Shown one piece after another: positions 16,218 to 62,944 of a DNA stretch of 64,000 bases. A model generated the notes under the pieces. The model saw nothing but the letters and a program-made list of their open reading frames with translations, searched no databases and was not told where the DNA came from. Numbering within the stretch: position 1 is the first letter of the stretch; every line of letters starts with the position of its first letter. The position numbers and the translations under genes are program-made. This DNA is from Aptenodytes patagonicus (taxonomy: Eukaryota > Chordata > Aves > Sphenisciformes > Spheniscidae). The stretch covers positions 22,654,101 to 22,718,100 of the forward strand of contig NC_134957.1 of assembly GCF_965638725.1 (NCBI RefSeq). The letters run 5' to 3'.

Positions 16218-16680
16218 ACATCCTCTGTCAGACAGCTACTACGTGACAAGTTTCCTCGCTGCGGGGCCGAGAGTGCCTGATGCTGGCTATCATGGCCGAT
16301 CCTGTAGCAGAAGAACACGTGTCCCAAGCTAGTGAACTCTGCTGCGAGTGTGGTCAGTTCCACCTCTTGCTGGACAATCATCTCTACAACTTCCAGGATG
16401 AAGTGGACGATGAACTCATCTGCCATATCTGCCTTCAGCCTCTGCTCCAACCTATGGACACCCCCTGTGGACATACGTACTGTTTCAAGTGCCTTGAAAA
16501 CTTCATGCAGGAGTATAACTTTTGTCCTATGGATCGGAAAAAGCTCTCTTTCCAGCAGTGCCACAAGTCCAGCCTTCTAGTACGAAACCTGTTGGATAAG
16601 CTGATTGTCTTCTGTCCTTTCAAGGCAGAGTGTCAGCAGACAATGCAGCGGTGTGAACTAGAAGCTCATCTGCAGAACAG
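16218..16680 (+). CDS. LNX2-like: LNX-like exon 2: start codon, RING finger and second zinc finger
   Basis: The acceptor is cattag|acatcc. The 5' UTR part (16218-16279) contains an in-frame stop and no ATG, so translation starts at 16280 or 16292. The exon encodes the acidic EEVDDEL-type lead-in typical of the family (here DEVDDEL), then the RING with the HICLQPL and CGHTYC signatures, then a Cys/His cluster. The donor is aacag|gtgcat, weak after the GTG. It is accepted because joining to 19083 restores the NRCPG sequence expected of LNX proteins. Confidence 0.92.
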
Positions 16681-19600
16681 GTGCATTCCCATTTACATTA
16701 TATTACTGCTCCTTTGTATAATGCCATCTGTCTGTTGTGCTTCTGACCGGAAAGATCCATTCTCAGAACAGTTCTTAAACTGGGGCAAGATGGGACACCG
16801 AAGATGACAGTGGGTGAGGCCAGAAAGGTGGGTGGGTGAAGACAACGTAATTGTGTGTGTGTGTGTGTGTGTGTGTTAGGGAGGCCAGCTCACATGTGCT
16901 ACAGAGGCGAAGGGTGAGGTTCTTGCCTGCTTGCATGCAAGTTGTCCGCAGACACAAAACCGATCAAATGTATATAAATTTGTGTCCCCTGATCTGGGGC
17001 ACCCGACTCTAAAAATTATAAACATGCTTATTCTTGTTTCACTTGCGCAGAGAAGAAAGGCACAAAGTCAACACTCTGGAAGCAAGGGATTGTGCAGTGT
17101 TGCCAGTTTAATTGGTCCAATTAAGATGTGCAATACATAAGTCTTTGATCCAAATAATGTAAGTCCCTCCAAGCTGCACATTATGCAGTTGCTGAATCAC
17201 CTACTTATAATTCCATTATCTTCTCTCATTCTTTTGCTGAGAAAGAGAAGCAAATGAAAAATTTTTTTTTTTTCCTTTTTTCCCCCTTGTGCAGAGGAAG
17301 GGAGACTTTTTTTCTTGGGCTTGTCAGCAGAGGTGTGTTTTGGTGCTTCCACTGCTGGTTGAGCTGGTGGCAGGCAGAATATTGTAGCTTTAAATAAGTG
17401 CAGGTGACAAAGAGCTCTTGCCATGGCGCTTGAAGAACACTTGTTCCTCCCTAGTTAATGATTGCAGGAAAGGGAGCTAAGTACAAGCCCTACTGCAGAC
17501 AGAAGCAGACCTTCGCTGGCAGTGTGTATTTTGTCAGTGGGCAATGAGAAATGCAACAGGCTTGTTTCCCTAACTAACTCTTTGTCCTGCTTTCTTGTTA
17601 TCAGGCAGGGCTGAATGCGTAGACTACGGGGACAGGGCTGCCCAGTTGTGCAGTTGTCGTGTAGCTGGGACCATGGGCCATACCAGGGCTGGGCCTTCCT
17701 CTCTGCCCTGGTATCAGTAAACTTCTGTCAGTTGTTAATCCCTGTGGCACAGGAGTTAAACACAGAAGAGAGAGGCACCCTTAAATGTTTACGTTAGAGA
17801 CCTGACTGGAAACTATTTCATTCTCTTATACGTTTCATAGTTCTTTGTATATTCCTTGGGGAGGGTGTGTTCTAAAAATCGAGGCTATTTCACCTGGGCT
17901 GTGAGCATAGTTAGACTGAAAAATGAGGAGGGGAAAAATAAAAAAAAAGAAAGAAAAAAATTACACTGGGATTTGGGTCTTCCTGTTTTGGTTTTTTTTT
18001 TAGTTTTAAGTGAGATTAACTGGTAGGAGACTTAAGGAAATAAGAAGCATCTAGAAACTTGTTTTCTTGGGGGATTTCTCTGCCCTTTGCAAAATGAATT
18101 TGTTTCTTGACATCTTAAGAGGGATGTGCACAACTGGATCAATCAGTTTTCTGTCTTTAAGTTTCAGGGTCATCTTACTGCTTGGAGAATAAATGACTAG
18201 GAATGAACCAGAGGTAGTAATACCGGGATGAGACTTGTTTAGCCAGAATGTAAATAGTCAACTTTAATTTGAAAAGTGACTCTGGTAAACACCCAATACT
18301 ACTCATGTCTCTGAAAGTGATGCTTTTTCATTCATCACCCTCCTCACCTGCCACCTTTTTTATAAGTACTCTTGATAAAAGAGCTTGTTTTTCCTTGCTC
18401 GTTTTTGCTCAGATAGTCTGGCTGTGGTGTAGCTGCATACAGAGCGCATTTTGTTGAACATAGAATTACTTCTTGAACCTCTGTGTGGGGAGCAGTCAGT
18501 GGCATTATAAACTCCTCTAAATTGCTCCCATTCAAGTAGAGCCATCACCTGCGTGGACTGGAGGTGGAGTTCTGTCTGATGGTCAGGTCTCATTCAGCAA
18601 AAAAAATAAGCAAGCCTCGCTTGCTGCTCTTGCATGTTACTGGCTTGTTAAAAACAAAGCCTAATTCAGGGCTGAGCTTGAAACTTGAGCCACTTCCTTT
18701 GCATGAAGATACAGTTCATAGTCATCTCCAAAAGGTCAGAGCTAAGTATTTGCTTATATTTTAAGAGGTATTGTTTTCTTCACCTAAAGGTAAATATTTA
18801 GCAAGGGAGACTCCTGTTCCTATTACATTCTCCTTTTTTAAATAATTTGCTTAATAATTTTGAAAGTAATAAAATAACAGGCCTGCTCTTAAGCTGAACT
18901 AGTACAAGTAGATGCTGAAGGTCAAATGAGAATAAATTTTAGCATCTGTGATACAAGCTTTGCAGCTGATGAGGTCTTGAACATGCTTCTTCACATAACT
19001 TTGTCAGTCAGAGCTTGCATGTGCTGGGTTAACCACACAGGCAGAGACTAGCCACTTACAGTCATTGACAATCTCTCTCTAGGTGTCCTGGTTTCAAGAA
19101 ATACAGATCTGAACTACAGCGGAAAAAGAATCCCATTTCCAAAGGGAAGGAAGATCCTCCTACCAAGGTGGAGACAAACACACTCAAGGATCCAGAGGTA
19201 CCAAGTGGAGGATCGTCACTTGTGGCAGAAAGCTCTGCAGCTGCTGTGGTATCGCTAGGGACTGCGGAGCCTGGACTGGTTAATCCAGCTTTTGAGGAGA
19301 CTGAAGAAGGTGAGAGTTTGATACAGAAATGTAATTATGTAATTACCTCATTTTTATATCATAAAAGGTAATTATCTCAGACAATTCAATTTTTAAAGTG
19401 TCCCCAACTTTCTTAGATATCCTCAATGCTATTCAGCCATTAGTAGCCGTTGGAGTAATCTCTTTCCTCAGCTAGTCCTTGAGCAGAAGGGAGATGCATT
19501 CATGTGCATCAGGTGTGGCAGGATCTGCTCACAAGCACAAAATGGTCTGTGCAAAACAATTTGGAGAATCTCTGTTAGACTGCAGTGAATATTTGCAGTA

Positions 19601-22600
19601 TTCTTTGTAGAAACAAAGGCAGTCCCTGTCAATGGGAACATGCAGCACTTAAAGCACTTGCAGAATCCAAATAATTAGTAATTAGGAAATGTTCCAGCTC
19701 CTTCTTAATCTTGTTAAGAAAGTTAAACATACAGCCAGTTTCCTGGAGTGGTCAATACCTCCCTAATGGTGTGCAGCAAGTGTGTTTTTATAGCATAACT
19801 TATTTTTTGGATTAATAGTCAGTTATGAAACCCTTGCAGATAAAAGTAACCATCTCCACTTCAGTATAGAACCGCTTGTCTCAACCCCTGTTAGAAGGCA
19901 GCAGCGTGGAAATCTCTGTGCCTTGTTTCAAAGTTAGTCTCGGTTTCCAAGCGTGCAGGCGCTGGAGCTGGCAACTGCTGTGCCTGTGCCAGAGTTAATA
20001 CATGGGTCAGTTTAATTCTCTGTTGGCTTTTTGCCAAAGTACACTTGGGGCAGGTTTTGCATCTCTCGTGTGACAGCTGCAGTTCACCCTGACAGGCACT
20101 GCGCTTGGCTTCATTAAGAGTGTTGGGCCTGCCTAAATGTTGCAGTGCTGGTAGATTTAATAAAACTTGCTAACAACAACTGTCCTCTTCAAAGTGTCTG
20201 AGAAGCATTGCTTAGTCTTCAGTATGCTGTAAATACGTAAACATTACTCCTGTTTTACAGGGGGAATGGGAAAAGAGGAGGAAAGGAGATGAGAGGAGGG
20301 AAGTTGCAGTGAGCTGCCTGTGGTAAAGTCGCCGCAATGGCAGTAATTACAGCTCAGTAGTCCCCTTTTCTAATGGGCATCGTGGAAATTGGCATTTGTT
20401 ATGTGTGCGCTTCTAGTAGGCCAGCTGTCACAGTAGAAAAATAAATCTCTAAATGGTAAGTGAAATGCCCTTTAATAAAACTCAAGAAATAATAATGAAA
20501 GAGTTTAAATTTGCCATAAGCTAGGAGAAGATGGGGAACATTCTGGAGAAACTGTAAAGAAACAGGAGCTTTTTAAGTTTTTAATCTGACCTATTGTTCC
20601 CTCCTGATAGCTACTTTCCCTCCAGATGCTACTTTGGACACAACCTGCCAGTGTTACAAATTTTGGAGTGCTATGTGAAGGAAAATTCTATTAACGTGTT
20701 GTTTTTTCTCTTCAATTTCCACAATCAGACCTTCCTCAGAGAACTAGTCTTGTGGCTGAAACAACCACAATTGAAATTCACCGAGAAGACCCGGAGGAAG
20801 AGCTGGGGATGAGGATAGTTGGGGGTAAAGACACCCCACTTGGAAACATTGTTGTTCAGGAAGTCTTGCGGGATTCTGTCATTGCTGCAGATGGAAGAAT
20901 AGCACCTGGGGACCATATTCTTGAAGTATGTAAAACCCCACTGGTAGTCCCATTGCTTCTCTTGACTTGAGATGAGGGTTGGGGGAGGAAAGTTGTCTAG
21001 AAAAACTGGGAAATCTCTATAGCTGAGGGTTTAAAAGCACTGATCAAACTTTTGTGTGTCGGTAGCATTGTGTATCTGCTGGGGCTGCGAAGCAGACTTT
21101 TGAGGTTCCTTCCAGTCATATTCATATTTACCTTGCATATTTGATAACTTTTTGAAATTTAGACCATTTTTGATAAATTAAAAAGATTTCTATCTGATAA
21201 ATTTCACCCAGTAGCACCATTTCTCTCCAAATGACTGTGCTCTAGTTAGGAAGTCTTATAAACGCTTGCTCCACTGTGTTGCCTAAGCTGCATATTCTCA
21301 ATGGGCAGGTCCAAAGTTTAAGACCTTATGACTTGAAGTAAGCATCAGATATGTAATGTGAGTAATAAAGAGCACCAACCTCATACCGTGCTGACCCACG
21401 GCCAGATTTAGTTTCCAGATTAATCAGGTTGCATGGCAGTGGGCTAATCAAGGCAACGGAAGCTTGTATGCAGCAGTAAAGCCTACATGCAGCAAGAACT
21501 GTTAGCACCTCCCGGCTATGGCTGCCCAATCATTTGACAAGCCATAAAGACCTAATTATCCTGTTGGACTGTGGATGTCGGTGCAGACTGGCAGCCCCAC
21601 GTGCACAAGTGGCCAATACGATCTCCGAGTTGGTTTCTTAGATAGACCAATAGAGTAACTTCTATTTTATTCAGTTGAATTGTACATGTCTCAGTCGTGA
21701 CTGGGTTGTAAATAGGGCAGGTCCCCACACCTAGTAGCCCTATTAACATCCTAAAAGAAGACTGCACGGAGTCTTATGTGACAACAGACAAAGTGAAAAG
21801 TAGCTTCTCAGAGTTACCTTTGTAAAAGCATGATTAGACTGATGATTCCAGAAGCTTGTAGACTATGGACCACTCCTCAACTTAAAAGTGAGGATGGGTA
21901 GTCTCCAATTTGAGTTTTCTCCTCCAAGTGTGTATTGAACGCTGGAAGTTAAGGGAAATCAGTTCTGCGTTTCCATGGGATGGATGTAATGATTTAATAT
22001 TTTGCAGTTTCAGATTTGTCAGTTATGAGAGTTGTCCTTTCTTGTCCCTGTCCTCAGCTATTCACCATCAATTATGGTCTAGTTTCATCTGCTTTCTTCT
22101 GCATTCTTTTTTAGAAAACTCTGCTTTCTAATGTGCATCAGAAGCAGCTGCTTCAGTCACGGCATTGCACAGGGAGTTGTACATCCCGCCTCCAACTTTG
22201 TGATGTTCCGCACTGTGGACAGTGCCTAAATTATGTAGGTTCTGATTAGTGACTCTGGTATGTTTGTCTTTGTAGGTGAATGGCATCAACATCAGCAGTG
22301 TGACTCACTGCCAAGCTGTCTCCTTTCTGCGCCACCCAGGTCCTGTTCTCCACCTCATGGTCCTGCAGGAGAAGGGTTTTTCCAGTAAGACTGCACAGCA
22401 GGATTCCACTTCTGCTACAAATCGGGAAGTGATCCACGTTACCTTGATAAAGAGAGACCGATCCGAACCCTTGGGAATCAAACTGATCAGGAAGACAGAT
22501 GAGGCAGGGATTTTTATTCTAGATCTGTTAGAGGGAGGTTTGGCAGCCAAAAACGGAAAGCTGAGTCGGAATGACAGAGTCCTGTCAATAAATGGCCAGG

Positions 22601-25600
22601 ATTTGAGGCAAGGAACACCTGAGGCTGCCGCGCAGATAATACAGGTAATTTATGTTGTGGTGAGGTTGTATGGCTGTCTGCATTGATGGCAGGGTTCCTG
22701 TTCTGACCCAAGGGCTAACAGAACACACTAGAGCAAACTGCATTCCCTGAAATATCTCTGGGAAAGTGACTTCCCTGCAGATGTGTGGGAAGCATCGCTT
22801 CCAAATGAAGATAAACACGAAGAGTGGGAATCCATCATGAGTCATCTCTGACAAGTCTGAAGCGAGGCAGTTGCTCATGGCGCTTTACTTCAGCTAAGGC
22901 AACTGGATCTCCTTTGTGGTGTGGTGTTTGGAGCCTTTCTTGCAGAGTGAATATTCGTATGCGCTGTGTAGATGCATGCAGCAGAGACAAAGATTAGGAC
23001 AGCCTCTCGTGCTTCAAACAGTCAAACTGAAGGTGTTTGTTGGGAGATGTGATAGGCTGGCAGCACAGAACAGAACCCTTTTGACTGATTTGAAGCCCTC
23101 TCTCCCTGTTTTACCTGTATTTGGGAGGGGAGTCTAGAAAACAACATGAGGCACCTCAGGCTAAAAACATTCTGAAATACTAAACAGGTAGAAGAGAGGT
23201 TGTCTTTCCCTGCGCAATAGACATGCGCTCCTGTTGCAGCATGCCAAATGTTTTGGTGAAAGGAGTGGGCAAGGAATTTTGGTTAAGGATTAAGGATTGC
23301 TACGTGTGCAGCAGATATCATGTAGATCAGTTTAAATTCTTTATCTCCCTAGGCGATGACCTCCAGTTTCTGTTTTTATCTAAAGATCCTGACACAATAC
23401 ATCTCATCACATACTGTTTATATCCCGGAAAGGATCTGAGGTCAGCAGAGTGAGGGAGAGCCAGTTCTTTTCCTGGTAATCAGCAGAGGGGTGCAGTGGT
23501 ATGGGAGAAAAGAAGAGAAAGAGCAGAGTTCCAGTACTGAGATCCTTTTTTATGTGATATATATATATGATTCCATTCTATGGCCTCTTAGAATTTTGTT
23601 TGCATCCCATTAAGTGCTGCTGTATTTCTGTTGTAATGTGCAAGCATAACTCCCATGAGAGGAACTCTTTCTTGATACCACTGAAATTGGTAACCAAAGT
23701 CTCCAAACCAGCTTCAGTAGGTTTGGGCATTGAATTCCTTTTGAAGTGACATTTGTGTAAAACTGTGACAGTCTTCCAAACATTATCTGTTCTTCTGAGG
23801 GCTAATTCAAATTATTGGCTAAATGTAATTTTGATTGCAAACCATTTGCAGAAAAGAGTCCTTCTACCTGTATTGTAAAGTACCATTTACAGAGAGAGAG
23901 AGAGAGAGAGATGCACAGCCATATGTACTGTACATAAGTCTGGTAATCCTGGTTGAAGGGGAGGGCAAATCCCCATTTTAGGACATGATGTTTACAATAT
24001 ATTTTATGAAGACATGGATGTGTGCCAACTTGTCTGGAAAAAAATTGCTCTATCTGAAGTGACTTTGGAGGCAAGAGGCTTTTAAATTCTGTTTCAGAAA
24101 ACAAAAGTCTCCTGTACTAGTTTAAAAAGAAAAAAACCCAAGCCAGTTGATGCAGTCCCTCTTCTGAGGCCAGGGAATTCACTGCTGCCAGGGTGCTGTG
24201 GCACCAGGGGAACAGGGTCCCATGTCACAAAGTGAGAGAGGCAACCGTACGTCTCTCGTCCGTTGCAGGAAATGCCCCAAGTCAGCACAACACCTTACCC
24301 CAATGGAGTCCTTCACAATAAGGTTTTGTCAAATTATCTGAAAGAACAAACCAAATTAGAAGAGCAGTAACAATAGTGAATACTTTCCCTGTAGTTCTGC
24401 CAAGGCCAGACATACAGCTGGTTAAGTGTTTAATTGGCAGCAATCTTAGACAAAAGGTCATGTCTTCAGGTACTCTGGGAAAAAAATGGGTGGGAGATGT
24501 TGAACAATAGACATGGTACATAAGCTGGGAAGGAAAGAGCTTTAACAAGTTTCTTTACAATAAAAGAAAAAGCATCCAGTACTCGTACCACGGTCATCCA
24601 TCATGTGGACCAGTCAGCGTTCTAGCTCTGTTCATTTTGTATCACAACACAATATGCTATTTTGGTTATTTGTACTGAAGTGGAGGAATTAATCATCCCT
24701 TTCCACTCTCTCTTGTTTGGCATTTGTAGGGGAGGGAGGCATGAGTGAAGCCTGCCTCTACTCCTGTTCCTTCTGTCTAAAATTTGCTACTTCCTTTTTT
24801 CTCTTCACCATAGGATTCTGTGGCTCACCACAAAAAACATGGCATCGTGTTGCATAGCCCTGTTTTAGACCTTTTGTAGAAACCGACGCCAACCCTTCTC
24901 TCTCCCCAAGAAAATGACAGGGGCTGTCCCTAATTTCTAATTTATTTTTCTATTTTATTTACACTCTTCTTGTTTCTCCTGGCAGACCACTGAATCAAGA
25001 GTGAACTTTGTTGTCTTGAGGCAGCCAGGTGTACAGCTGTCGGACCCGGTGGAAGATGGCAGCACATCAAATAGCAGCAGCAGCAGCAGCAGCAGCAATG
25101 GAGGAAGCCCAGTGCACCATCGGAGACGACTAGACCAGAATCACTATAGACGAAAATCTAACTACCAGAAGGTAAGTTTTGTAAATAACGGCAAAAGCGC
25201 TGGTTATTCTTGGTCTAGCAGATCTATTATGTTTGCTCTGTGACGGCGATTTATCATACAAGACTGATGAGTAGCTCCATTTCTTCTTGAGCTATTGAAA
25301 AGCAACAGGTTTGTGGCTTTTAGTACCGGAGAACCGTATGTTTGTCATCTACTGGGAAACACAGTTTTTAGGGAAAAACGTGTCAAAATTTCTTCAAATG
25401 TCTCTAATGTTGATACAGAACCAGTGATTAGTCCTTTCTTGTCTGGAAAGGGCAATGGGAAATTTACCATCCATGAGACGCTTGGGACTTGCTTCTTGAC
25501 ATCCATCAAGCACAACACATTCAGGGCATTACACGATGACACTAAGTTACGCTTCTGGTTTGGAGCTAGAGGGCTTTATGGTACAGAAGTAGAAACTACA

Positions 25601-33308: not shown

Positions 33309-33815
33309 AAGCTCAAACAAAACACACAACAGTTTCAGGTATCAGATATCAGTTGGCCATCACACAAAGCAAAACATGTGACAGATGAAGCAAGGGAATG
33401 GTGAACTCTTGCTACACAGTGTATTGCCATGGAAGACTCTTAGCTTCCGTTTTGGAGAAAACATTTCTTTACCGTGCTGAGGTTATCAACAAATCTGGTT
33501 GTTGAATTCAAAGTAATGGTTGATCCAAACAGTTGTTGTAGCTTCCTGGGCTCATTAAAGCTCTTTAGAATTGGTGTTGCAGAGAAAGCTCTTTTTCCAG
33601 TGTTTCTCTACAAACTGCCTTTGAGGCGCTTTCCTCAATTTTAGAGCTCTGTTTTCCATCTAATATTTTGAACAGGTTAAAACAGGCATGACTGTCCGAT
33701 TTCCCCTGCTAGTTTAATACAGTTCCGCTACTGATCTCTGACTGCCCTTCTTGGACATTGAGTCATTTTATATGTGCCTTTAAAAGCCACTAATAAAACT
33801 GTAAGGATGTGGACC
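33309..33815 (+). other. LNX2-like: Probable 3' UTR of the LNX-like gene with AATAAA signal
   Basis: The first good AATAAA after the stop codon is at 33792-33797 (taataaaact), followed by a GT-rich stretch (gtaaggatgtgg). This would give a 3' UTR of about 500 nt. A second possible signal, overlapping AATAAATAAAG, is at 35132-35141 and could give a longer isoform. The UTR end is inferred from the motif only. Confidence 0.5.
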
Positions 33816-39260: not shown

Positions 39261-39269
39261 GACGTGTTT

Positions 39270-39826
39270 GTAGCTATAAAGAAATTTATTTGGGGATGAG
39301 ACTTTTCACTACTAGAAGCCAGACTCTAAGCTGGCTCTCGGGATCTAAACCACACTTTTCTTTGGACAATAAATTTCAAGTCGCACTTACTGTCCTAGTT
39401 TTCAAAAAGGAATGATGATGACAAAAAAATAAACAAAAACTATTACCTAAATGCGTTAGTTTCAGCTGAAGCTATCTTCCATCAGAAACCATAGGATCTG
39501 ATACAACAAAGTTCTCCCTAGGGATGTTTATGAGTAGAGTAGCTCAGTGCTTTGTATACTAGTACTGCTGTATTTTGTCTCGTATCAAAAGAAAAAAAAA
39601 AAAAAAAAAAAAAAGAGAAGTTGTTGAACTGCATGTGCAGCCTCAGCTCTCAACCCACTGCCACATGCTTCACCGCTCACCCAGAGTCAGCCTCTCTTCC
39701 CTTGGGAGAAACAAATAAAAAATAATAATAAAAAAAAATAATCAAACCCCCCAAAACAAAACATCGCCAATGCCACGCTGGTTCAAAAGGAGTAAGTTCC
39801 TCCTGAGGGCTGACGGCGGGCCTGGG
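39270..39826 (-). other. FIP1L1-like: Probable 3' UTR of the FIP1-like gene
   Basis: On the minus strand the sequence runs from the stop codon (39829-39827) through an A/T-rich stretch at 39706-39760 (T-rich with ATTATTATT on the coding strand) and a 23-nt homopolymer (A on the + strand, 39592-39614). It reaches an AATAAA, seen as TTTATT at 39285-39290. Cleavage would fall near 39265-39275, giving a UTR of about 550 nt. The end is inferred from the signal. Confidence 0.5.
39592..39614. repeat. Poly(A) run, 23 nt (poly(T) in the FIP1-like transcript)
   Basis: Lies within the inferred 3' UTR of the FIP1-like gene, where it would be transcribed as U23. Confidence 0.85.
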
Positions 39827-39959
39827 TTACTCCTTGGCGTCCTGCTCCTCTCCCTCCTGGGCGCCATCTTCACTGGCCTCCTTCTCCTCTTTGCTCCGCT
39901 TGTTCTTTTTGTGCTTGTGACGCCGATGACTCTCCCCCTCCTCGCTCTCATGTTGCTTG
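39827..39959 (-). CDS. FIP1L1-like: FIP1-like last exon: basic tail and stop
   Basis: The acceptor on the minus strand is ccgcag|caagc. It encodes [18 protein letters not shown], then NKRSKEEKE and an acidic end, with TAA at 39829-39827. The alternating basic cluster matches the C-terminus of FIP1L1 ([16 protein letters not shown] as I remember it) and contains a likely nuclear localisation signal. Confidence 0.93.
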
Positions 39960-51900: not shown

Positions 51901-54900
51901 TTTGCTCCCGCAGCTAGGACCTCACTGTGCTGGCATAAAGGGAGCGTATCACCAAAGCAGGCAGCATCGTGATACCTGGAAAGACCAGGCTATGCTATAC
52001 CCAGGGGATAACACCTTTTGGAGAGGAAGGCAGGCTGATCAAAGCGATCAATATGCTTAGCAAGATATCTTCTCTTACGCAGAACAGCAGCGAGACCAGA
52101 TTCTAGCTGTATACACAACTGCGCCAGACAGCTGATATTTCAGTGTTACGACCACCTTTTGTTCACGGGGACTGCCACGGATACAGGCTTCAGATTAAAA
52201 GCTGCCGTATTCGAGGGCGACACAGTCACAGTTGGTTTGGTTTTTTTTTAAACCCAATTTATCTTTCCTGAGGGCAGCAAGAGGCCACATTCTGCTCTAG
52301 ATTGTGCCCACGTAGGTCAAAGGAAGACTGGATTCACGTCTGTCTGACAAAAGCAGGTCACATGCCCACTACTGCTGAAGGAACAATCAATACGCAGAGA
52401 GACCAGAATGACCTGGAAATACAGGTATCAGTGCTTCTAAGTGGGAAGAACGACCACCATTTCCCAGCAAATTCTTTCTCTTAGGCAAACTCTTTTTTGG
52501 GCCACTGTTGGCAACACTTGGAAAACTGACCACTAAAAAACCAAACAGACCACAAAAACACACGTAAAAACAAAACCAGGAATTGCGTCTAGACAGGGGA
52601 AAGGTTCCATATTTGGGGTTTTTTGGTGAGTTAGGAGTGGCTGGTAGGAGAAAGGTGGTTAAGAGAAGAGTTCTCGGCAGATGGTCCTCAAACCCTACAC
52701 ATAGCACCTTCCTACCTAGAAGGCAGGCAGAACATTATGGTCATACACTGGACGCGCAAGATCAGAACTGAGTCCAGCTTTAGACCCCAGGCTTTTATTT
52801 CTTATAAGGGACAAGATCCAGTAACACAGGCCCACCCTAAGTCTGAAGTGTGGGCTGCATCTAGCGATGCTTAGACTAAATGTTACTTCAACGTAAAAAG
52901 AAACACAAGCCCCAAGTAGAAGTCCTCCACTGCAGAACTGGAGATTCCAACCCGACAGTGGAGGGGAAGGGAATAATCCACACGAGAGCCTCCCAGCTAC
53001 GCGCCCCGAGGAATATTTTGGAGAGCTGATGAGAAAAGGAACTTAGGCCTTACCATTCAGATGGGAAGGCTAGTCTTTAAAGGGCAATCCCTAGCTCCTA
53101 GCAAGGTAAAGCTTTTAAAACAGAAGTTAATTCAACCTGCGGAAGGGAACGATACATGCATACGCCTCAACAGGGTTGATATGCTACCTGCTGCTTTGCA
53201 GACAGAAACAGCGACATGGGAGGTCAGGAATGCACAGACATTTGCTCAGGGTTCACTACAAGTGCAATAAAATCAGGAATTTGTCAGGACAGCGCAAAAC
53301 ATTTACCTGAATTGGGTTTTCCTCAGAGGCATGCTTATCGCGACGTCTTCCTTCTACTCTCCTAATTGTGCCTGCCTGGCCACCGATCACATCAATTGTC
53401 CCACCCAGCTTCCTGGTACAAAGCAGATGCATCTTTTTAGGCTCGAAGACATTAGAAGGAGCAGTGTTCCCCACTATTACACAGGCTTCTCTCGTGCATT
53501 CTTTTCCACCAGGGAAAAATCCCTAGAGGCAGCACTCAGATTGGACAAGAGGTGAACGAGAAGTCCTTTTTCACTTTTGAGCAATTTGAGCTCTGCTTGC
53601 AGGGGTGAGTTAGGTCTCTCTGAACACCTAGAGACATGATCCGAAGAATCACCACATACGGGTGTAATAACATGGATTGCACGCTCTGGTTCAGAGCTGA
53701 AACCCTTCACTCACTCTCCAGATTTGAATAATCATTCCCAGATCAGGCTCAGAGAAAGTGGAGAGTATTTATCAGGAGAAGCCTTTAATGTTATCAGCCC
53801 AGATTTTTGCTGCTTTCTGTCCAATCTTCTGAGTGTTGCCGATACCACTGAAGTTATTTAAAATCAGATTCTCAGACACTTTCTAGCCCACCTCCCTGGG
53901 GTCTACCCTGTTTCTAGTCAAGTCAAAAGTTTTGCCCCTGCCTTCAGTGAAATCAAGGCTAGACCCTTGAACAAAAATATATTCACGTAGCCAAGAAACA
54001 GTGCTGCACTAGTGGAAATCAGTCACAGAACCTACAATTTTCTATGTTCTTTTATCTCCATACCCAGGTGACACTTGGGGGAAGAACATTTTTTATAGGA
54101 GCTCCTTGTAAGGTCACCACAAGTAAAGGTTTGTGAGAGAGAGAAGCACCCACAACTGAAGTTTTAGAATCCCTCATCCTATATTCATCCAACAATTGAT
54201 TTGTGTTAGTATGGCCTTAGGCATGTTTTCCTGCAGTTAGGACAGAAAAACGTCAGCACTTTTCCAAGTTAGACAGAAGAATTTTCTATCTCAGTAGGAA
54301 ATTTAGACAAAATGCTGGCTAGTTGGCGAGATGAAGTTTTCTCACTGAAATTTGCTCTGTTTAAGTAAAAAAACCCAAACAACAAACAAACAACAAACCC
54401 AACTCATTGCTAAGCCCATGGTTTTGATGCTGCTGTGGTGTATGAAGATACTTGTTCTGGTCCTGACCAAAAGCTCTGCTGCAGGAACAGAATCTCGTGG
54501 GTCAGTACTTTCAAAACCAGACTGCAAGTTAGAATGGACAAAAATGCTGTATATGCAATAGCATCAGCTTATTTTGCAATGGTGTAGATTTTCAAAAATC
54601 TCAGGAGATACGCGTAACAGCTGGAAACAAACCTGACCGATTCGATGGCACTATGAAGGGGGACAGAAATGCCAGCAACGTGCTTAAATGCAAACAGACT
54701 AAGCAGAGTTTTAAAGCTTATACTTGAAGCATATAGTTGGTTCTCTCTCAGACAAAGCGGAAAGTTGGAATGCGAGACTGATTTCTGCAAGACAGGCGTG
54801 CAAAAGATGTAATGTGAATAAACCAATAGAAACACCCAAATCCCAAAGCTCTGGCTCTTCTTCATAGCTTTGTTTTTCTGAAGCTTTTGATAAAAAACCA

Positions 54901-57900
54901 CCAACCTCCTAAGGTCAAAGTGGGTTTCCCAGCAGAGGCTGCCAATCAAAATGACTCAAGCGTTTTGCTTTGTCCAGCCTTGTGGATCCTCCCTCTCACT
55001 GGAGAAAATAACTAATTGGCACGCATCAAGCAGCGTAGCATACAGGTTCAGAAACCAATAGCTCCTCTTATCAGCTGCCAAACATGTAATCCACTTCCAC
55101 TTCAGGAGGCAAAGATTAACATTGTGGGAGTAAGAATAAGCCAAGTAAGCACAAGCAGCCAGCAATGTAAGCCCTCAAAGCCGAGGTATTTGCCTTGTCT
55201 TTTCTACTCCCGGAGATGCGTCCCTTCAGCTGGGATATAGGTTTCCCTCCCTGTGCAGCACTATTCTGAGGATATCGCCAAGGAGAGGTAAACGGGTAGG
55301 CAGGGGTTGCACAACCCTCAGGAGAGCACTGCTGAAGACAACAGTTAATGAGTGGCCACAGTAGCTTCCTGTGAAGTTTAAAAGCTGCTTCTGTTTCAGG
55401 CTTGAGGCGATTCTGATGTGGCCCAGGTGGATCCCAGCTACCCCTACGAAGAACACAGTGCACCCAGGCTTTATGTCTGCATCATCTCTTACCTGTTAGG
55501 AGGAGGCCCAGCCTTCATGCGTCCTCCCACCAGAGCCAAAAAGTCTGTTTTGAATTCTGTTTTGATGATGTTGTTTTCCACTTCTTTTTCAGCATTTCCT
55601 GTTCTTCCTTGCTGAACCTATGGAAGGCAATATATAACACACGTTTAATGCCCTTACTTTCAACCGAATGTAGCATCAGATATTAACCCTCAGCAAAGGA
55701 AAAGGGCTCCCTTGAGGAACAATCACAGGGCTCTTGCAAACAAGCAACCTATTCTTCAGTCAAGGTGGCAGACAGTTCTGTAAACTAGCTGGCTATTCCA
55801 GCCCCAGCCTGCTGTCCGCTGTCCGAAAGTTTAATAATCTCGTATCCTTTTTCATGTAGTCCTGAAGTCAAAACTGGAAATAGTAATACTTGCTGTATTG
55901 ACGCTTTGGCTGAAGTTCTGATTAACAGCTGTTGGCCACCTGATGGACTTCTGCAAAGGCTGATGGCCAAAGCAGCCTCCAAACACAAACGGCAGCCACA
56001 CAACCGCAACAGTCAACAGCAACAAGTAAAACAGCCATGGATGCCCAGCTCCCCTCTCTACACCTCTCACATCCACAGGATCTTCCAACCAGACACCTCT
56101 ATAGCTGAGTAGTCTCAAAGTCAACTGGAAATTCACTTAAGTCTTGCTACTGTAGTGGTTCAAACCTGCCAGACAGCTGGAGCCATTTGTTCCAGAGAGA
56201 AAAGATTTTTAGCAGAGAGATTTAATCTTTAAAAATACATTTTTGTACTTCTCATCACTGAAAGGAACACAGAACAGTTAGGTATTAAGGTATCTTCTGC
56301 TCTTACACTCTCTGGGATTATAAAAACAAGCCCCAGTTTTATTGTAGCCACGTGCAGGAGTAACACGTCACCTACCGTGATCTTATTTTCAGTGCTGATG
56401 GGAGGAGCAGGATCCAGTCCAAGCTGAAGCCGTCGCTGCTTTTCACAATAAGCTTTCCACGTTTCTTCATTGAATCCGTAATTAAAGTAATCAGAAAGAT
56501 CAGCGCCTGACAAAGGGAGCAGAAATTAACATAGGGATTCTAGCAGACCTGCATTCTCAAATTGTCCTTTAACTGCTTAAATGAAGAGTTAAGAAAACAA
56601 AAACCTTCTAGAGAGCACAGCTTACTCTCCATTTCATTCTGTCAGAAAGCGGCTGCGTGCCACAGCGGAGATGGCTGCATCTTTCGTTGGGAGGGGGACT
56701 ACAGCCTGAACAGCAGCGGGACCATTTGGGACACAGAATACAGCACGTGTGCAGGCTATTAAAAGAGATGCTTGCAACCACTTATTCACCAACCGGATTT
56801 TTTCAGACTGGTTTCTTGCCACTGTCCAAATGAGTTTAGTGCTGGGGAGGGCACAGGAATGACGGTTCCAGCTACGACCACAAACATGGAATGGTGCCAC
56901 AGAACCGTTTTCTTGGCAGAGCTAAGCCAACACGTTCTGCTCCTGACCGTCGTTGCCTTTGCTGTTTTGAGAAGAGATTCGGGGACTCACCCATTTCGTG
57001 AAACGGGGCTAAGGTGGAAGTTTTTTTTATTGATACGTCTCAGACTACACACGTAATTACAGTTCAGTCATGATCCTAACTATAGCCTTCCAAGATTGTT
57101 ATCTTACTTTGACAGTCTTCTGTGAAACGTGCCAATTCAGCATGAGCACTTCTGAATAAGGGAGGTGGCCACAAACTGCCTGCCAAGAAAACGTAGACGC
57201 GGAGGGACAAACACAGCTGCAGCTAACTCCGTGAGGCGAACCTCACAACAGGAAGCACTGCAAAGCACCTCCTAGCCCTGCTGAGGTGTCCCTCAAACAT
57301 CCCCCTCGCAAAGGCGTTCCTAGACAGACCGATTCTAAACCAAGGAGCTGATACATTAAGGGCTAAGCAAAACGCTTTGACCACGCTGAGCTTGGATCTA
57401 TACAGCAAGGCTTAAGTTTATCTTCTAGGTAGGCTGCTCTTCCTGCTGTACCACCCAAATATGCAAATTTCACCAACACAGACTCAGCAACGTGACATTT
57501 ACATATCTATTTTATCAGCCTATATTTCAGCCCTTCATCAGTTCTTCCACACCGTATTTCTTCTTCCTCTCCCTCACTTAAGGAGACACCAACTTGCTGA
57601 ACAATTAACTGTAAAGGATATAAACCTGAAAGGCTGTTGAGTAACAAGCTACTTGCCATCTAAAATAAACTTACAGGCCACACCTCTGCAGACATCTTCC
57701 CTCTATTCGTACTTCAACACTGTTTTAAGGCTAGCTGGCTTCATTTTGGTCCAGGGATGTCAGCATGACCACAATGATTTCCATGCTTTAGCTCTGAACT
57801 TCACTTCATTGTTTTCCTTCTAACTGATTTTCTTCCTAGCCCCCTCTTTCTCACTTCACAATCGATGGGAAATCCCCTGCAGAAGAAAGGCTATGTTTTC

Positions 57901-60900
57901 TATTACGTCTGTACCAGCTACTAGTCATCACAGCGTGCTTTAGTGCTGGTTTAATACCATGACATGTTGATGTAGTTACTAGCACTGTTGTGTACTCTGA
58001 TGCCCTTCATTTCAGGTGGGCAAGAGATACCAAAAACACACCACAGACAACCTTATAAAAGCACTACTTACTTAGCATAGCAATTATTTCTGAAAGATAA
58101 ATAAAGTACAGGGGCTGGCGGGGAGAAGAATTATTTCTGAGTCGAGGCAAGTGGATTTTTTGCTTCAGTTGGCATTTCATCGTAGCATGTTTTATGAGAG
58201 TAGCACAGCAAAAATTTGGATCTCTCTGGTTCCTTCATTTACTTTTGTATCAAATTCAGATGAAAACCAGAAAGTTTATTTGTAGCATCCTACAGCTGTC
58301 ATGCAAGAGTCGCTTCCGAGCAGAAATCTCATACTACTAATCAGGAAGACAAAAGAGACCATGTACCTATTAAAACCTGCTGTGCGAAGTACTATTTGTC
58401 TGGACAAATTTGTCTAGATAATACTGTCCAGAAGAAATGCGTGAGGACTGCTCGCTCACAGTTATGCACCTAGGGGCAGAATCTAGCAAAGAATTAGGCA
58501 ATGCAGCTTTTTTAAAAGAAAAATCCTAGCCTTTCTTGTCAGAGTAGGCAGTGTTTTCCTTCCTTTTATTCAACTGTTTGCAGCAGAACTCAACACAAAA
58601 AGACAGCTTTCCTATCGCGACGTGCTCACATGGCAATTCCCACCATCGCTACCACCATCGCTGCCCTCTGCAAGGGGTACTTTCCTGCACAAGTGTGGAC
58701 ATCCCCAGGACCCAAATGAAAAGGGTGCACGGGGATGACTCTGAGCTTGGCCGTGGTGAGACAGAAGAAGCAAGCTGCTGCACACATCATCAACAGCCAA
58801 ATCTTGATCCTACTCAACTGACTTTAAGGCCAACAAACGTTATCGTATTGGTATCAGTGCAGTATTTTCTGGAACTAGGGAATTAATAAAATAGAACATT
58901 AAAAAAAATAGTTGTTCCCTTTAGGGAAGATAAATTAATAGAGTAAATGCAACCCAATTTTAGGTAGAAACATGGCTTGATCAATCAGTAAATGTCACTG
59001 ATTGTCTAGACAGGCATCAGAGGCTGAGTAATACGCGTTGTTCTGACTTCCCTGTTCCCTGGCAGCAATAAACGGACAGAAATTACATGTGAAATTAAAG
59101 ACAGACAACTAAAACTGTAGAACATATTTACCACAAGAAACTGTGAGGCCCCACCTGGTTTCCTCCACGGTTTGTCTTCAAATGAATCTAAATCCACTTC
59201 TATAACAGGCAATCCATTTATATTCCCTGCGGCATCTAAGTCAATACCTTTGGGCTGCAACTTGGCTTTAGAGAGAGAGAAACCGTTACTACTTTTAATG
59301 CAATGCCTTTAATCCACTAATTTGCTGAGCAAATTACTCCCCTCAAAAATAAAGCACCCCTGTGAATTCACTGCTGGCTTTACAGCACGTAGGTAACCAC
59401 AATCAACTTTTTAATAAAAATTTCTTCAGTCGCTCTACAAATAAATAGCCAGGGTATACAGCACTTGCAGTTGAACAGCAGAGAAGCAAATTCAGCCCAG
59501 ACTGGTACTACAGACAAACGGAGTAAATTATTAGAGCATGCATGAAATTTACCCCAAATGAAAAAAAATGCATTTTTCTCCCCAGGCAAAATAAATATTT
59601 TACCCTCCCAAGATACACACATTTTCTCATAACAAGAAACTTTTTCAGGATCAGTCTTAAGTGGACCATGTACTAAGTGGAGTCAGCAAAAATCTGTTGA
59701 GTACAGAATCTTCAAGGGGAATCTGTTCTTATTTTCTCAATCAGAAGGTAAGTCATTTCCATAACAAAATTAATGGAAGGAAGTATATGAAGCCCATGAA
59801 CAGACAGTCTCACATAGGAGGAAGGACAGAATCCAAGTCTCAATATACAGTATAAACTAAACCGAATGGTGGGGAAAATTTCATCTGCAGAAATACGCAT
59901 AGCTGATACTCAAGGCCAGAGTTTGTTTCTTTTAGTATCTCACAGTGCAAGTAGCTCAGTATACTGACCACAGAGTTAAAGTTCTTCTCCAGGCAATTTA
60001 GAATGTTTGGCCCCAGTGCAACAACAGAGTTTAGAAATATTCTGGTTTTTTACTATAAAAGTAATAATCACTGTTTTTTTTTTTTCTAGTTTAAATAGAA
60101 TTACAATCAGCTTGTTCAGTGATGGGTAATTAAATCATTCCATTGCACCCTGGACCTTCAGACTGTCCTAGGAGCACTTATCTTTAGGAAACGCACTTAC
60201 TATTCCTACTTTAAGTAAGACGCGCTAATTTTATATCCTTCCAAACAGAGACCAAGATTCAGCTGCTCCAGCTGCCAGTGCCAGGTAAATGAAATACTGC
60301 AAAAGGTGAAGGATAAAAATAACAGCAATACCTGAAGCGGATGCTCCATAGCCTCTACCCGTTTTTAAGTTTAGATTCATAGGAGTTCCCCTATATGGAA
60401 AAGAATCACTACATTGGTATTTGAACAAATTACTTGGTTGAAGATTTTCATGCAAAATATATTCAAGCCCTGACATCCTTCAGAAGATGCGTCGTTCACT
60501 TGGGTTTATTCATGCCTCTCTACGATTTTTAGTACCAAGTCTCAACACCTTAAAAGTGAGATTCATTTACCAGTTTCATAAGTTTCTCTAACCCTACAGA
60601 AACGCAACAAACGTACTTACTGACCAACAAAAGAACACAAGAGGATTGTCTTGAACATGAAGGGCAAGGTTATTTCAAAGAGTGGTAGTTCCCATTCTGC
60701 CCAGGAACGTACTTAGTATTTAAACGGAACTGAACAACACGGAAATCATAGCTGCGCATAGATCACAGAAGGAGGAGAGAAAGGTAGAAGAAGCAGATTT
60801 CGAAAAGGATGTCTGCAAAATCTTGTGAGCGTCTAACGGATGGAGCATTGCTATTCAGAGTAATCCATCAGACTGAAACCACCTCTACAAGAGAAGGAAG

Positions 60901-62944
60901 TTATCCATAAAGTGGAAAAATTAGAATATGCCGCAAAGCGCATGTAAGTCATTTCCTTAAGAGGAAGGCTGCTAGCAGCAAGCAAAAATGCTGTCTTATT
61001 ATTTTTATTCAATGCAAATTAAGTAGAATTTTAAGTCAGTGACATAATTTCCTGGTTCGCAAATCCAGCCTCACCATTTCTGAATCACGAAAATCAGACA
61101 GCTGAAAATGAGCTTATGCAAATTCTTACCAATACAGATTTTGGCTCTTGAACATTTCACAGATGATGAAGTTAAATGTAACTTCCCACCTTTGATTTTG
61201 CGCAACGAAGCATAGTAATTATTTGGTTAATTTTCCAACAGCAGACCCCTGAATTATCATTCCTATTTTATAGATGGATTCTCCAACAAGCAATTGCAGG
61301 GCAGAGCTGCCCATCAGCTTCTAATCCCGTTCTGGTGTTCTGACCATTACTCCCATGTCTCCCAGAAGACAGATCAGCTCGCATCCCCACTTTCAATCCC
61401 AATCAACACGCTAGAGCTACCTCAGATCAAAAATCAACACCATAATCAGCAATACATACATGTACGACGGTGCTCCCGTTTTAATGTTGCCAATAGTAAC
61501 TTTCACGTCATCATCATCACTGTCGCTATCGCTGTCATCTTCATCATCTTCACCACTTGGAAGGGCCTAGCAACAATAAAAGCACACAGGAGCTCATTAA
61601 TACATAAAACTGATAAATTCCCTGGGACAGTAAGCCAAATCTTACAAAGCTTGTATGATGAAGGACTACTAGAAAGAATGATTCTGATACAAAGACATAA
61701 CTTTCTACTTTCTTTTTCTATACAAAGTTGTCTCTGGAGGCAAAACCCATGGAAGTAACCAGCCTTCAACAGAAACAGACAGGCACCCACAAAGAAACTG
61801 CTACGTCCTTTGAAGAAGTGGCCCTACATGAGAATCAGGGTAAGATTTCTGAAGGTGGGGAAGGTTTAGCTCGATTCTAAGAATTTCATCATGTCCCACA
61901 GTTCCTCTCCCCTACTCTTTTTGAAAGAGCTAGGGCTTTCCTGACACATCTCCTTCACAGGTCGATGGTGAAAGTATACAATCACAAAAATCACCAAAAT
62001 ACATTCACCAGGCTTCACCGAAGAACCTTGGGGCAAATATTCTCTCATCACAACTTTTGTGGTAGGAAGCTGCTGAGGAGCTCGGCTTGGCTTATTTAGC
62101 ACAATTGGTCCCCGAGTCACTTAACTTTACACAAGAACTTTACAGCTGCCGATTCGACTCCAGTGCAGCACCACTGCTGGGGCACAAAAGCAAAGGAAGT
62201 CTTCCAGATATCCAGCAGTGCAGTTTTGCAAGATGCATGAGCTGAATTAACACCTCACCACTACAAAAGGGTATGGGGAAGGTGTTCCTAACCCTCCCTA
62301 CTTTTCCATGGCACAGGGGTTTGTCAGAACTCTGCGTGAGCCCTCTTGACATACCACAGTGGCAGAAAATAAACCCATCAAAAAGACTAGAGGAAGAGGG
62401 GGTGGAGAAGCAAGCCTCCTCCTACTCTTTCAGCACTGAGCCACTAGATTGCATTCTAAGTGGTCTGAGCCTGAATCAAAACTGATTCCAGCACTTCGGG
62501 CTTTCTATCCCAGCGTTTCCCACATTTCACTGACCCTCGAGAAGTCATACTAAGTATTGAGCTGGAGGTAGCATCGCGTTCTGCTTTTCCTGACAGACTG
62601 CAGCATCAGAGGCCCTCATCTGCCTCTTCAGTGGGCATAAGCAATACTTAGATTAGGGTTCACTACCCACTACACAAGGCAGGCTGAGAAGAGAAGCCTG
62701 TTGCTGTAGTTAGCATTAGGAATTGACTGTCGGTACACTCCTACAGTACAAATGTAACGTACTGGGCAGTACCAGCATCTTTACGCTTACATCTTTTTAT
62801 CCATGAGTATTGAGAAGCACAAAAATAACTACGTCTACCATTCGCAGTGGAACACGTACATGTTGCGACATCTCTCGGTCTTCATTGCTGACAGGCCGGT
62901 TCTCCTGAGGAGCATCTTGCAAAGGATGAGAAGATTCTGCATGT
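39827..62944 (-). CDS. FIP1L1-like: FIP1-like pre-mRNA 3'-end processing factor (CPSF subunit), fourteen exons, 5' end beyond the window
   Basis: Exons in transcript order: 62944-62860, 61566-61460, 60390-60332, 59265-59155, 56506-56376, 55617-55493, 53412-53307, 51860-51662, 49753-49727, 47192-47135, 46548-46505, 45114-44916, 42945-42787 and 39959-39827. They total 1543 nt with all phases compatible, giving about 513 residues plus stop. FIP1 is a nuclear CPSF subunit that binds poly(A) polymerase, CPSF30 and U-rich RNA. Seen in order: an acidic Asp/Ser region, the [11 protein letters not shown] motif, NLNLKTG, the conserved FIP1 core ([31 protein letters not shown]), [14 protein letters not shown] with RVEGRRR, a Gln/Pro-rich domain, an Arg-Glu/Arg-Asp region and a basic lysine-rich tail. 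The N-terminal exon or exons (about 70 residues in FIP1L1) are outside the window. Central and C-terminal segments differ from ordinary FIP1L1, suggesting a paralog. Confidence 0.92.
39960..42786 (-). other. FIP1L1-like: FIP1-like last intron
   Basis: A 2.8 kb intron between the RERE-type exon and the last exon. No further exon was recognised on either strand. It has scattered A-rich runs near 41250-41275. Confidence 0.5.
42787..42945 (-). CDS. FIP1L1-like: FIP1-like exon: Arg/Asp/Glu-rich RNA-binding segment
   Basis: The acceptor is cttaag|tgacg and the donor agacg|gtaaga. It encodes [20 protein letters not shown], then repeated [11 protein letters not shown] and [11 protein letters not shown], ending HKSSRR. 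FIP1L1 has the counterpart DEERYRYREYAERGYERHR. The Arg-rich region of FIP1 binds U-rich RNA near poly(A) sites. Confidence 0.93.
44916..45114 (-). CDS. FIP1L1-like: FIP1-like exon: divergent Ser/Tyr segment and RE-dipeptide repeat
   Basis: The acceptor is gctgcag|attca and the donor aacaa|gtgagt. It encodes [16 protein letters not shown], a serine run followed by HWEYSGSRR, about nine RE dipeptides, then [12 protein letters not shown]. In FIP1L1 this position has [24 protein letters not shown], so only the general design (aromatic patch, then an RE/RD repeat, then S/TPT) is kept. The repeat is made from mixed codons. Confidence 0.9.
45115..46504 (-). other. FIP1L1-like: FIP1-like intron with a long minus-strand open frame
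   Basis: A GC-rich 1.4 kb intron. From an ATG at 46218-46216 to the stop at 45412 the minus strand is open for 268 codons. The product has no domain I recognise and does not join either flanking exon. It is reported only because of its length. Confidence 0.4.
46505..46548 (-). CDS. FIP1L1-like: FIP1-like short exon (44 nt): [14 protein letters not shown]
   Basis: The acceptor lies in a tandem repeat ending ccagccag|ctaca, and the donor is ctgcag|gtgagc. It joins a Gly codon from the exon before and an Asp codon in the exon after, giving [20 protein letters not shown]. It corresponds to the GYDSRSARAFPYGN region of FIP1L1. Confidence 0.85.
46549..47134 (-). other. FIP1L1-like: FIP1-like intron, no further exon seen
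   Basis: A 586-nt intron with no additional exon recognised. It ends on the minus strand in a short tandem array of AGCC units at the acceptor. Confidence 0.5.
47135..47192 (-). CDS. FIP1L1-like: FIP1-like short exon (58 nt): proline-rich
   Basis: The acceptor is tgtctag|ggttg and the donor gatgg|gtaaga. It encodes [18 protein letters not shown], matching the FIP1L1 stretch FPPPPGAPPPSLIPTIES. The phase agrees with the exons on both sides. Confidence 0.88.
47193..49726 (-). other. FIP1L1-like: FIP1-like intron
   Basis: A 2.5 kb intron with a 19-nt A run (+ strand) at 48051-48069. No coding exon was recognised. Confidence 0.5.
48051..48069. repeat. Poly(A) run, 19 nt
   Basis: A pure A run in a FIP1-like intron. 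No element body was recognised beside it. Confidence 0.8.
49727..49753 (-). CDS. FIP1L1-like: FIP1-like microexon (27 nt), proline-rich
   Basis: The acceptor is tccatag|gtctg and the donor attccag|gtaggt. It encodes LPPPGPIPG, which reads in frame between the Gln/Pro-rich exon and the next proline-rich exon. It resembles the IPITVPPPG segment of FIP1L1. As a 9-codon cassette it may be skipped or included without a frameshift. Confidence 0.8.
49754..51661 (-). other. FIP1L1-like: FIP1-like intron
   Basis: A 1.9 kb intron with T- and A-rich runs near 50120-50170. No exon was recognised. Confidence 0.5.
51662..51860 (-). CDS. FIP1L1-like: FIP1-like exon: Gln/Pro-rich domain
   Basis: The acceptor is ttctaag|gtcctt and the donor cctccag|gtatgt. 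It encodes [17 protein letters not shown], continues with Gln/Pro repeats, then polyproline ([34 protein letters not shown]). FIP1L1 starts the same exon with VLSERS and lacks the glutamine-rich part, so the Gln expansion is peculiar to this copy. Confidence 0.9.
51861..53306 (-). other. FIP1L1-like: FIP1-like intron
   Basis: A 1.4 kb intron with nothing recognised inside it beyond ordinary AT-rich sequence. Confidence 0.45.
53307..53412 (-). CDS. FIP1L1-like: FIP1-like exon: IDVIGG and RVEGRRR motif
   Basis: The acceptor is gtaccag|gaagc and the donor attcag|gtaaat. It encodes [20 protein letters not shown], then [15 protein letters not shown]. The FIP1L1 counterpart is RLPGAIDVIGQTITISRVE and GRRR. 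It joins the preceding exon in frame with no need for any exon between them. Confidence 0.92.
53413..55492 (-). other. FIP1L1-like: FIP1-like intron; no counterpart of the human KWQDRYGRAESPDLR exon seen
   Basis: A 2.1 kb intron. In full-length FIP1L1 a Ser/Thr-rich exon with KWQDRYGRAESPDLR lies between the VQQGRTGN and IDVIG exons. I found nothing like it here, and the flanking phases are compatible without it. Confidence 0.5.
55493..55617 (-). CDS. FIP1L1-like: FIP1-like exon: VQQGRTGN and a divergent segment
   Basis: The acceptor is ccatag|gttcag and the donor aacag|gtaaga. It begins [16 protein letters not shown], the same start as the FIP1L1 exon, then runs [18 protein letters not shown] and [11 protein letters not shown]1L1 instead continues [21 protein letters not shown]. 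The start is therefore conserved while the middle is different, which is part of the case for a separate paralog. Confidence 0.9.
55618..56375 (-). other. FIP1L1-like: FIP1-like intron
   Basis: A 0.8 kb intron with no further exon seen. Confidence 0.5.
56376..56506 (-). CDS. FIP1L1-like: FIP1-like exon: FIP1 core motif
   Basis: The acceptor is tgtcag|gcgctg and the donor atcacg|gtaggt. It encodes [20 protein letters not shown], then [20 protein letters not shown] and KIT. This is the most conserved part of the FIP1 family, the region reported to contact CPSF30. It is nearly identical to FIP1L1 up to EKQ and diverges after it. Confidence 0.95.
56507..59154 (-). other. FIP1L1-like: FIP1-like intron
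   Basis: A 2.6 kb intron. No additional exon, RNA gene or repeat family was recognised. Confidence 0.5.
59155..59265 (-). CDS. FIP1L1-like: FIP1-like exon: start of FIP1 core
   Basis: The acceptor is tctaaag|ccaag and the donor aaccag|gtgggg. It encodes [20 protein letters not shown], then [20 protein letters not shown]1L1 reads [20 protein letters not shown] here. The [12 protein letters not shown] end is invariant in the family. Confidence 0.94.
59266..61459 (-). other. FIP1L1-like: FIP1-like introns around the 59-nt exon
   Basis: Two introns of about 1.07 kb each flank the small exon at 60332-60390. A T run lies near 60075-60087. Nothing else was recognised. Confidence 0.45.
60332..60390 (-). 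CDS. FIP1L1-like: FIP1-like short exon (59 nt): NLNLKTG motif
   Basis: The acceptor is catatag|gggaac and the donor cttcag|gtattg. It encodes [22 protein letters not shown]1L1 has [20 protein letters not shown]. The phases join TACAT of the exon before and CCAAG of the exon after. Confidence 0.92.
61460..61566 (-). CDS. FIP1L1-like: FIP1-like exon: acidic [11 protein letters not shown] region and VTIGNIKTG motif
   Basis: The acceptor is ttgctag|gccctt and the donor tacat|gtatgt. It encodes [20 protein letters not shown], then [18 protein letters not shown]1L1 reads [20 protein letters not shown] followed by DIKTGAPQY. The acidic part of FIP1 contacts poly(A) polymerase and is a likely CK2-type phosphorylation target (inference). 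Confidence 0.94.
61567..62859 (-). other. FIP1L1-like: FIP1-like intron
   Basis: A 1.3 kb intron with nothing recognised. Confidence 0.45.
62860..62944 (-). CDS. FIP1L1-like: FIP1-like most upstream exon seen
   Basis: The acceptor is tattag|acatgc and the donor caacat|gtacgt. It encodes [20 protein letters not shown], then EDREMSQH, a polar acidic linker in the place of the poorly conserved FIP1L1 ENASANPPSGIEDETAENG region. The first base completes a codon begun in an exon that lies to the right of the window. It is the least certain exon because the sequence is weakly conserved, but the splice sites and phase fit. Confidence 0.72.

Follow-up and report, generated by a model that had tools for sequence, protein, structure and literature searches.

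Which LNX gene and which FIP1 gene are the two that lie tail to tail in the window, the 64 kb stretch of DNA analysed here (C9:22654101-22718100)? The LNX gene is encoded on the + strand and the FIP1 gene on the - strand, with 6,518 bp between their stop codons, in agreement with the 6.5 kb given by the initial annotation, which regarded the pair as an extra copy distinct from LNX1-FIP1L1. We conclude, with a probability of about 96%, that the window is the proto-X-inactivation centre of a non-mammalian vertebrate, probably a bird, comprising convergent LNX3 (LNX2B) and FIP1L2 genes that are ancient paralogues of LNX1-FIP1L1 from the ParaHox paralogon. Orthology to LNX3 and FIP1L2 rests on synteny and on published gene order. 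The LNX3-FIP1L2 locus is already known; the idea of an extra copy was right, and its identity was missed. A third LNX1/2-like gene, LNX2b or LNX3, has been described in fish, marsupials, amphibians, and birds, and in eutherians LNX3 is reported to have become a pseudogene that gave exons to XIST (Flynn et al. 2011, PMC3162930). The loss in mammals that had been proposed from the window sequence needs narrowing: the coding gene is reported lost in eutherians, and marsupials keep it according to the same paper. The resemblance of Lnx3 exon 4 to Xist exon 4, and of Fip1l2 exons to Tsx, was described in PMC2430539, and these origins of XIST and Tsx are repeated in PMC3164691, PMC12101419, and PMC3695352. 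The locus, its fate, and two further vertebrate paralogous clusters are likewise published (PMC5577775), and the core of the account dates from publications of 2006-2008 (Duret et al. 2006, cited there by others; PMC2430539). According to these papers, the locus would have lost its coding role in eutherians and been converted in part into XIST and Tsx. The window provides a further example, with coding frames intact, of the locus that gave rise to the X-inactivation master switch, and the placement of all three LNX clusters in one genome makes it easier to date the association of LNX with FIP1 and to reconstruct the starting point of XIST and Tsx.

The coding sequence of LNX3 (16280-33308, + strand) comprises nine coding exons, bounded by AG acceptors and GT donors, that join into a single open frame of 686 codons and a stop. 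The exons of the gene are as follows.

3200..3385, + strand, LNX3 5'UTR exon (donor at 3385, then GTGAGC; matched by an intronless retrocopy; 5' end approximate)
16218..16680, + strand, LNX3 start-codon exon with RING (ATG at 16280; coding part 16280-16680)
19083..19309, + strand, LNX3 coding exon 2 with NPAF motif (joined to both flanking exons in the retrocopy)
20729..20925, + strand, LNX3 coding exon 3, PDZ1 (Rfam Xist_exon4 match at 20733-20854, model positions 1-126 of 126)
22276..22644, + strand, LNX3 coding exon 4, end of PDZ1 and PDZ2
24986..25171, + strand, LNX3 coding exon 5, linker with a serine run
26270..26444, + strand, LNX3 coding exon 6, PDZ3
26623..26833, + strand, LNX3 coding exon 7, end of PDZ3
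31719..31877, + strand, LNX3 coding exon 8, PDZ4
33173..33308, + strand, LNX3 coding exon 9, up to the stop codon

The exon carrying the start codon begins at position 16218, from which the LNX gene had been drawn. As the left end of that exon the position stands; as the left end of the gene it does not, since the 5'UTR exon lies further left, enclosed by a CpG-rich stretch at about 2.7-3.9 kb of the window. The protein combines one RING domain (zf-C3HC4, over the Pfam cut-off) with four PDZ stretches identified with Pfam, the composition of the LNX1/LNX2-type RING-PDZ ligases. The NPAF sequence in coding exon 2 is one of the two forms, NPAY or NPAF, of the Numb-binding motif, and a motif of the NPAF type is how LNX2 binds NUMB (PMC3162930). 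Like LNX1 and LNX2, LNX3 would be a RING E3 ubiquitin ligase that chooses its targets through the four PDZ domains and the Numb-binding motif, and the natural reading of RING, PDZ, and NPAF together is a putative PDZ-guided ubiquitin ligase.

The FIP1L2 gene occupies ten exons in the window, running on the - strand from 61566 down to a stop codon at 39827, with AG/GT splice sites and one frame of 442 codons and a stop.

61460..61566, - strand, FIP1L2 acidic exon, main part of the Pfam TSX match
60332..60390, - strand, FIP1L2 exon, end of the Pfam TSX match
59155..59265, - strand, FIP1L2 exon
56376..56506, - strand, FIP1L2 exon with the Fip1 motif
55493..55617, - strand, FIP1L2 exon
53307..53412, - strand, FIP1L2 exon
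51662..51860, - strand, FIP1L2 proline-rich exon
44916..45114, - strand, FIP1L2 exon rich in RE/RD
42787..42945, - strand, FIP1L2 arginine-rich exon
39827..39959, - strand, FIP1L2 last coding exon with the stop codon

The FIP1 gene had been drawn as reaching 62,944, where we could confirm no exon; it runs past the window, and its exon 1 lies some 3 kb beyond. The start codon, 2,988 bp outside the right edge, is surrounded by CpG-rich sequence. No further FIP1L2 exons were found with confidence from exon 1 to 61566. The reading frames of both LNX3 and FIP1L2, the latter with its exon 1 beyond the window, are intact. The FIP1L2 protein has an acidic N-terminal part, a Fip1 motif (Pfam, E=3.4e-26), a middle region rich in proline, and a C-terminal part rich in RD/RE. 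In a search of FIP1L2 for the equivalents of five FIP1L1 exon stretches, none was found with confidence. Because its frame closes although several internal exons of FIP1L1 have no counterpart in it, FIP1L2 may be a shorter protein. It would act as a FIP1-type subunit of the machinery for mRNA 3'-end cleavage and polyadenylation, and a putative polyadenylation-complex subunit is the natural reading of the Fip1 motif and the compositional regions.

Copy number was established by searches of the whole genome (1.35 Gb in 618 contigs). Four strong matches to the RING exon of LNX were obtained (E<1e-44; the next is at 1e-8), located in the window, at a second site on the same contig that is a retrocopy, at C1:204.507 Mb, and at C4:31.108 Mb, and a search with the full-length LNX protein gives the same loci. 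The FIP1 motif occurs at two loci only, the window and C4:31.002 Mb, so that the genome has more than one FIP1 gene. Separate LNX1 (C4), LNX2 (C1), and FIP1L1 (C4) genes, which an extra copy would lead one to look for, are all present. Because the same genome holds a separate FIP1L1-LNX1 pair on C4 and a separate LNX2 on C1, the window LNX is the third LNX gene of the genome and the window FIP1 is its second FIP1 gene. The existence of this convergent C4 pair and of LNX2 on C1 supports the reading of the window genes as extra copies; the description of a third copy of the pair holds for LNX, and for FIP1 the copy is the second.

Comparisons with known structures and among the local paralogues place the window genes apart from LNX1, LNX2, and FIP1L1. 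Against the RING structures in the PDB, the window RING scores 190 bits with LNX2 (5din) and 160 bits with LNX1 (5h7r), whereas the C1 RING is closest to human LNX2 (262 bits versus 168 for LNX1) and the C4 RING is closest to human LNX1 (196 bits versus 170 for LNX2). An unrooted tree of five RING sequences pairs human with local LNX1 and human with local LNX2 and sets the window copy apart, with both internal splits recovered in 100% of 200 bootstraps. When two PDZRN outgroups are added to the RING tree, their long branch falls inside LNX1 with weak support (57.5/54), which gives no usable root. The window LNX was also considered as an LNX2 orthologue and ruled out, since in the RING tree it is the C1 copy that groups with human LNX2. 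LNX2, at a 13q12-type locus, resembles the window gene in its RING and PDZ exons and is its closest local paralogue. Identities over stretches from seven of the nine LNX2 exons, with LNX2 coding exons 2 and 5 left out, are 334/524 for LNX2-LNX3, 319/526 for LNX2-LNX1, and 281/518 for LNX3-LNX1; the LNX3 and LNX1 proteins are 51% identical overall (329/640) and 54% identical over the shared segments. In the FIP1 core, the C4 copy is identical to human FIP1L1 at 125/136 positions and the window copy at 96/131, and the two local copies share 72% (91/127). The local LNX1 exon 2 (C4:31074559-31074800, - strand) carries NPAF; NPAY is given for LNX1 in PMC3162930.

The neighbouring genes identify the locus. 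On the contig of the window the order is a WASF relative (22.528-22.531 Mb, +), a RASL11 relative (22.618 Mb, +), LNX3 (+), FIP1L2 (-), a CHIC relative (22.731-22.734 Mb, -), and CDX (22.769 and 22.793 Mb, -), so that the CHIC, CDX, and RASL11 relatives suggested as company for an additional pair are all present beside it. We take the WASF, RASL11, CHIC, and CDX relatives to be the family members that their positions indicate, the letters and numbers of the neighbour labels (A, B, C, 1, 2, 4, as in Rasl11c, Chic1, and Cdx4) being assigned by position rather than from trees. With letters and numbers given by position in this way, the window LNX lies between Rasl11c and Fip1l2/Chic1/Cdx4, the place of LNX3 (LNX2B). 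The published order in frog is Cdx4, Chic1, Fip1l2, Lnx3, Rasl11c, Uspl, Wave4, Slc16a2, and it is described as unchanged in chicken (Elisaphenko et al. 2008, PMC2430539). The chicken chromosome 4 Lnx3-Fip1l2 proto-X-inactivation centre (PMC2430539, PMC3695352) has the same genes as the window, and its flanking genes Wasf4, Rasl11c, Chic1, and Cdx4 stand in the same order here; the comparison covered WASF, RASL11, CHIC, and CDX, with Uspl and Slc16a2 outside it. In the coelacanth, Lnx3 lies on the same clone as Cdx4 (PMC4471637).

The two other LNX clusters of the genome each share part of this arrangement. On C4 the order is RASL11 (30.778 Mb, +), FIP1L1 (+), LNX1 (-), and CHIC (31.307-31.315 Mb, -), the neighbours being CHIC2-like and RASL11B-like, and 1,616 bp separate the FIP1L1 stop codon, which ends at 31,036,121, from the LNX1 stop codon at 31,037,738. 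This 4q12-type cluster resembles the window in its convergent LNX and FIP1 genes, its nine LNX coding exons, and its RASL11 and CHIC flanks, but its gene pair has the opposite orientation with respect to the RASL11 and CHIC neighbours. On C1 the order is CDX (204.318 Mb), LNX2 (204.507-204.536 Mb), RASL11 (204.659 Mb), and WASF (204.92-204.94 Mb). The RASL11, WASF3-like, and CDX genes, none of them more than about 0.45 Mb from LNX2, are shared with the window, whereas FIP1 and CHIC are not: the genome search returned no FIP1-motif or CHIC match on C1.

The window genes also resemble the two eutherian X-inactivation centre genes, XIST and Tsx, through matches to the models of Xist exon 4 and TSX that stay below the curated cut-offs. 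Among 4,227 Rfam families searched against the whole 64 kb window, Xist_exon4 gave the best match (29.5 bits, E=0.034), which lies below the gathering score of 100 bits for this family. The match covers the full length of the model and falls on coding exon 3 of LNX3 (E=0.00024 for a 450 bp piece), which is the fourth exon when the 5'UTR exon is counted as 1 and the ATG exon as 2. LNX3 thus has an exon similar to Xist exon 4, with a score under the curated cut-off. With E allowed up to 10, the model matched neither the LNX2 nor the LNX1 counterpart of this exon; on the retrocopy it scores 18 bits (E=3.9). In a genome-wide search with the same model, only 43 of 109,065 candidates were scored, the best reached 21.5 bits, and the LNX3 exon was not listed; matches below the cut-off also arose in 3 of 14 prokaryote control genomes, so this search has no bearing on uniqueness. 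Seven other Rfam families (MIR841, MIR530, and five more) matched the window at E 0.2-4, well short of their cut-offs, and were taken as chance. The Pfam TSX model matches FIP1L2 exons 61566-60332 with E=0.00035 on a 136-residue piece and 5.9e-5 on 55 residues, at 23.7 bits, just under the curated cut-off of 25.8 and with the acidic tract included, and the corresponding part of FIP1L1 gave no TSX match at E up to 1. The second FIP1 gene of the genome thus has Tsx-like exons, again with a score below the curated cut-off. An LNX exon resembling Xist exon 4 and a FIP1 gene resembling Tsx are likewise the features of the chicken locus. In contrast to the XIST/Tsx locus, both window genes keep intact coding frames.

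LNX3 and FIP1L2 presumably originated as ohnologues in the early vertebrate genome duplications. The convergent LNX-FIP1 pair is present at both C4 and C9, and one ancestral pair before duplication therefore explains the arrangement better than an insertion of Fip1l2. We consider it likely that the tail-to-tail pair predates these duplications and that Fip1l2 is no amphibian insertion, contrary to PMC2430539. Copies would then have been lost singly, first the FIP1 gene beside LNX2 and later coding LNX3 and FIP1L2 in eutherians. If this is true, the genes that preceded XIST and Tsx were already paired when the vertebrates began to radiate. A figure in PMC5577775 presents three paralogous clusters, and priority for the pre-duplication pair is hence not claimed.

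The alternative put forward in PMC2430539, an insertion of Fip1l2 beside LNX3 in an amphibian ancestor, would make the C4 pair of independent origin; it draws on a comparison of four species in which fish are drawn as Cdx4-Chic1-Lnx3 without Fip1l2. It would require a chance landing at the same place and in the same orientation, since two loci of the same paralogon, C4 with 1.6 kb and C9 with 6.5 kb between stop codons, both hold LNX and FIP1 tail to tail; this is less likely than a single pre-duplication pair, and we regard the insertion as improbable. That the window pair is a young, lineage-specific segmental duplicate is extremely unlikely: the additional LNX copy on C9 that might suggest recent duplication is an intronless retrocopy, LNX3 differs from LNX1 and LNX2 roughly as much as those two differ from each other, the flanks hold different RASL11, CHIC, CDX, and WASF family members, and a third LNX gene is reported from fish to marsupials, with amphibians and birds included (PMC3162930). 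The reading of the window as the diverged LNX1-FIP1L1 pair of this species, which would account for the convergent layout and for a FIP1 gene adjoining LNX, is refuted by the C4 pair, a far better match to human LNX1 and FIP1L1 with CHIC2-like and RASL11B-like neighbours, and by the position of the window RING outside both human-local pairs, LNX1 and LNX2.

Beside this chicken-like locus the genome carries two CDX-like loci and, on C9, an LNX3 retrocopy fused to a CR1-like repeat. The two Caudal_act (CDX) matches (C9:22768882-22769277 and 22792981-22793379, both -) have nearly equal scores and are separated by 24 kb; since a single CDX4 would be expected here, CDX4 may have been duplicated in tandem. 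The retrocopy (C9:12544850-12548254) lies 10 Mb from the window and contains the 5'UTR exon, coding exons 1-3, and 67 bp of exon 4 with no introns. Its identity to LNX3 is 91.5-94.3% over the coding exons and 85.5% over the 5'UTR. A functional fourth LNX at C9:12.546 Mb was ruled out, as this copy is intronless, has an in-frame stop (TAG), and runs into the CR1-like repeat. That repeat adjoins the 3' side in sense orientation, has an 88% copy on C4, and carries in its last bases ATTCTATG-type units, which we take to be typical of avian CR1 3' ends; together with the genome and contig sizes, the CR1-like repeat points to a bird as the probable source of the DNA. Retrocopies of mRNA are rare in birds, and this one fits a CR1 reverse transcription that switched template onto LNX3 mRNA, which implies past transcription and splicing of LNX3 in the germ line.
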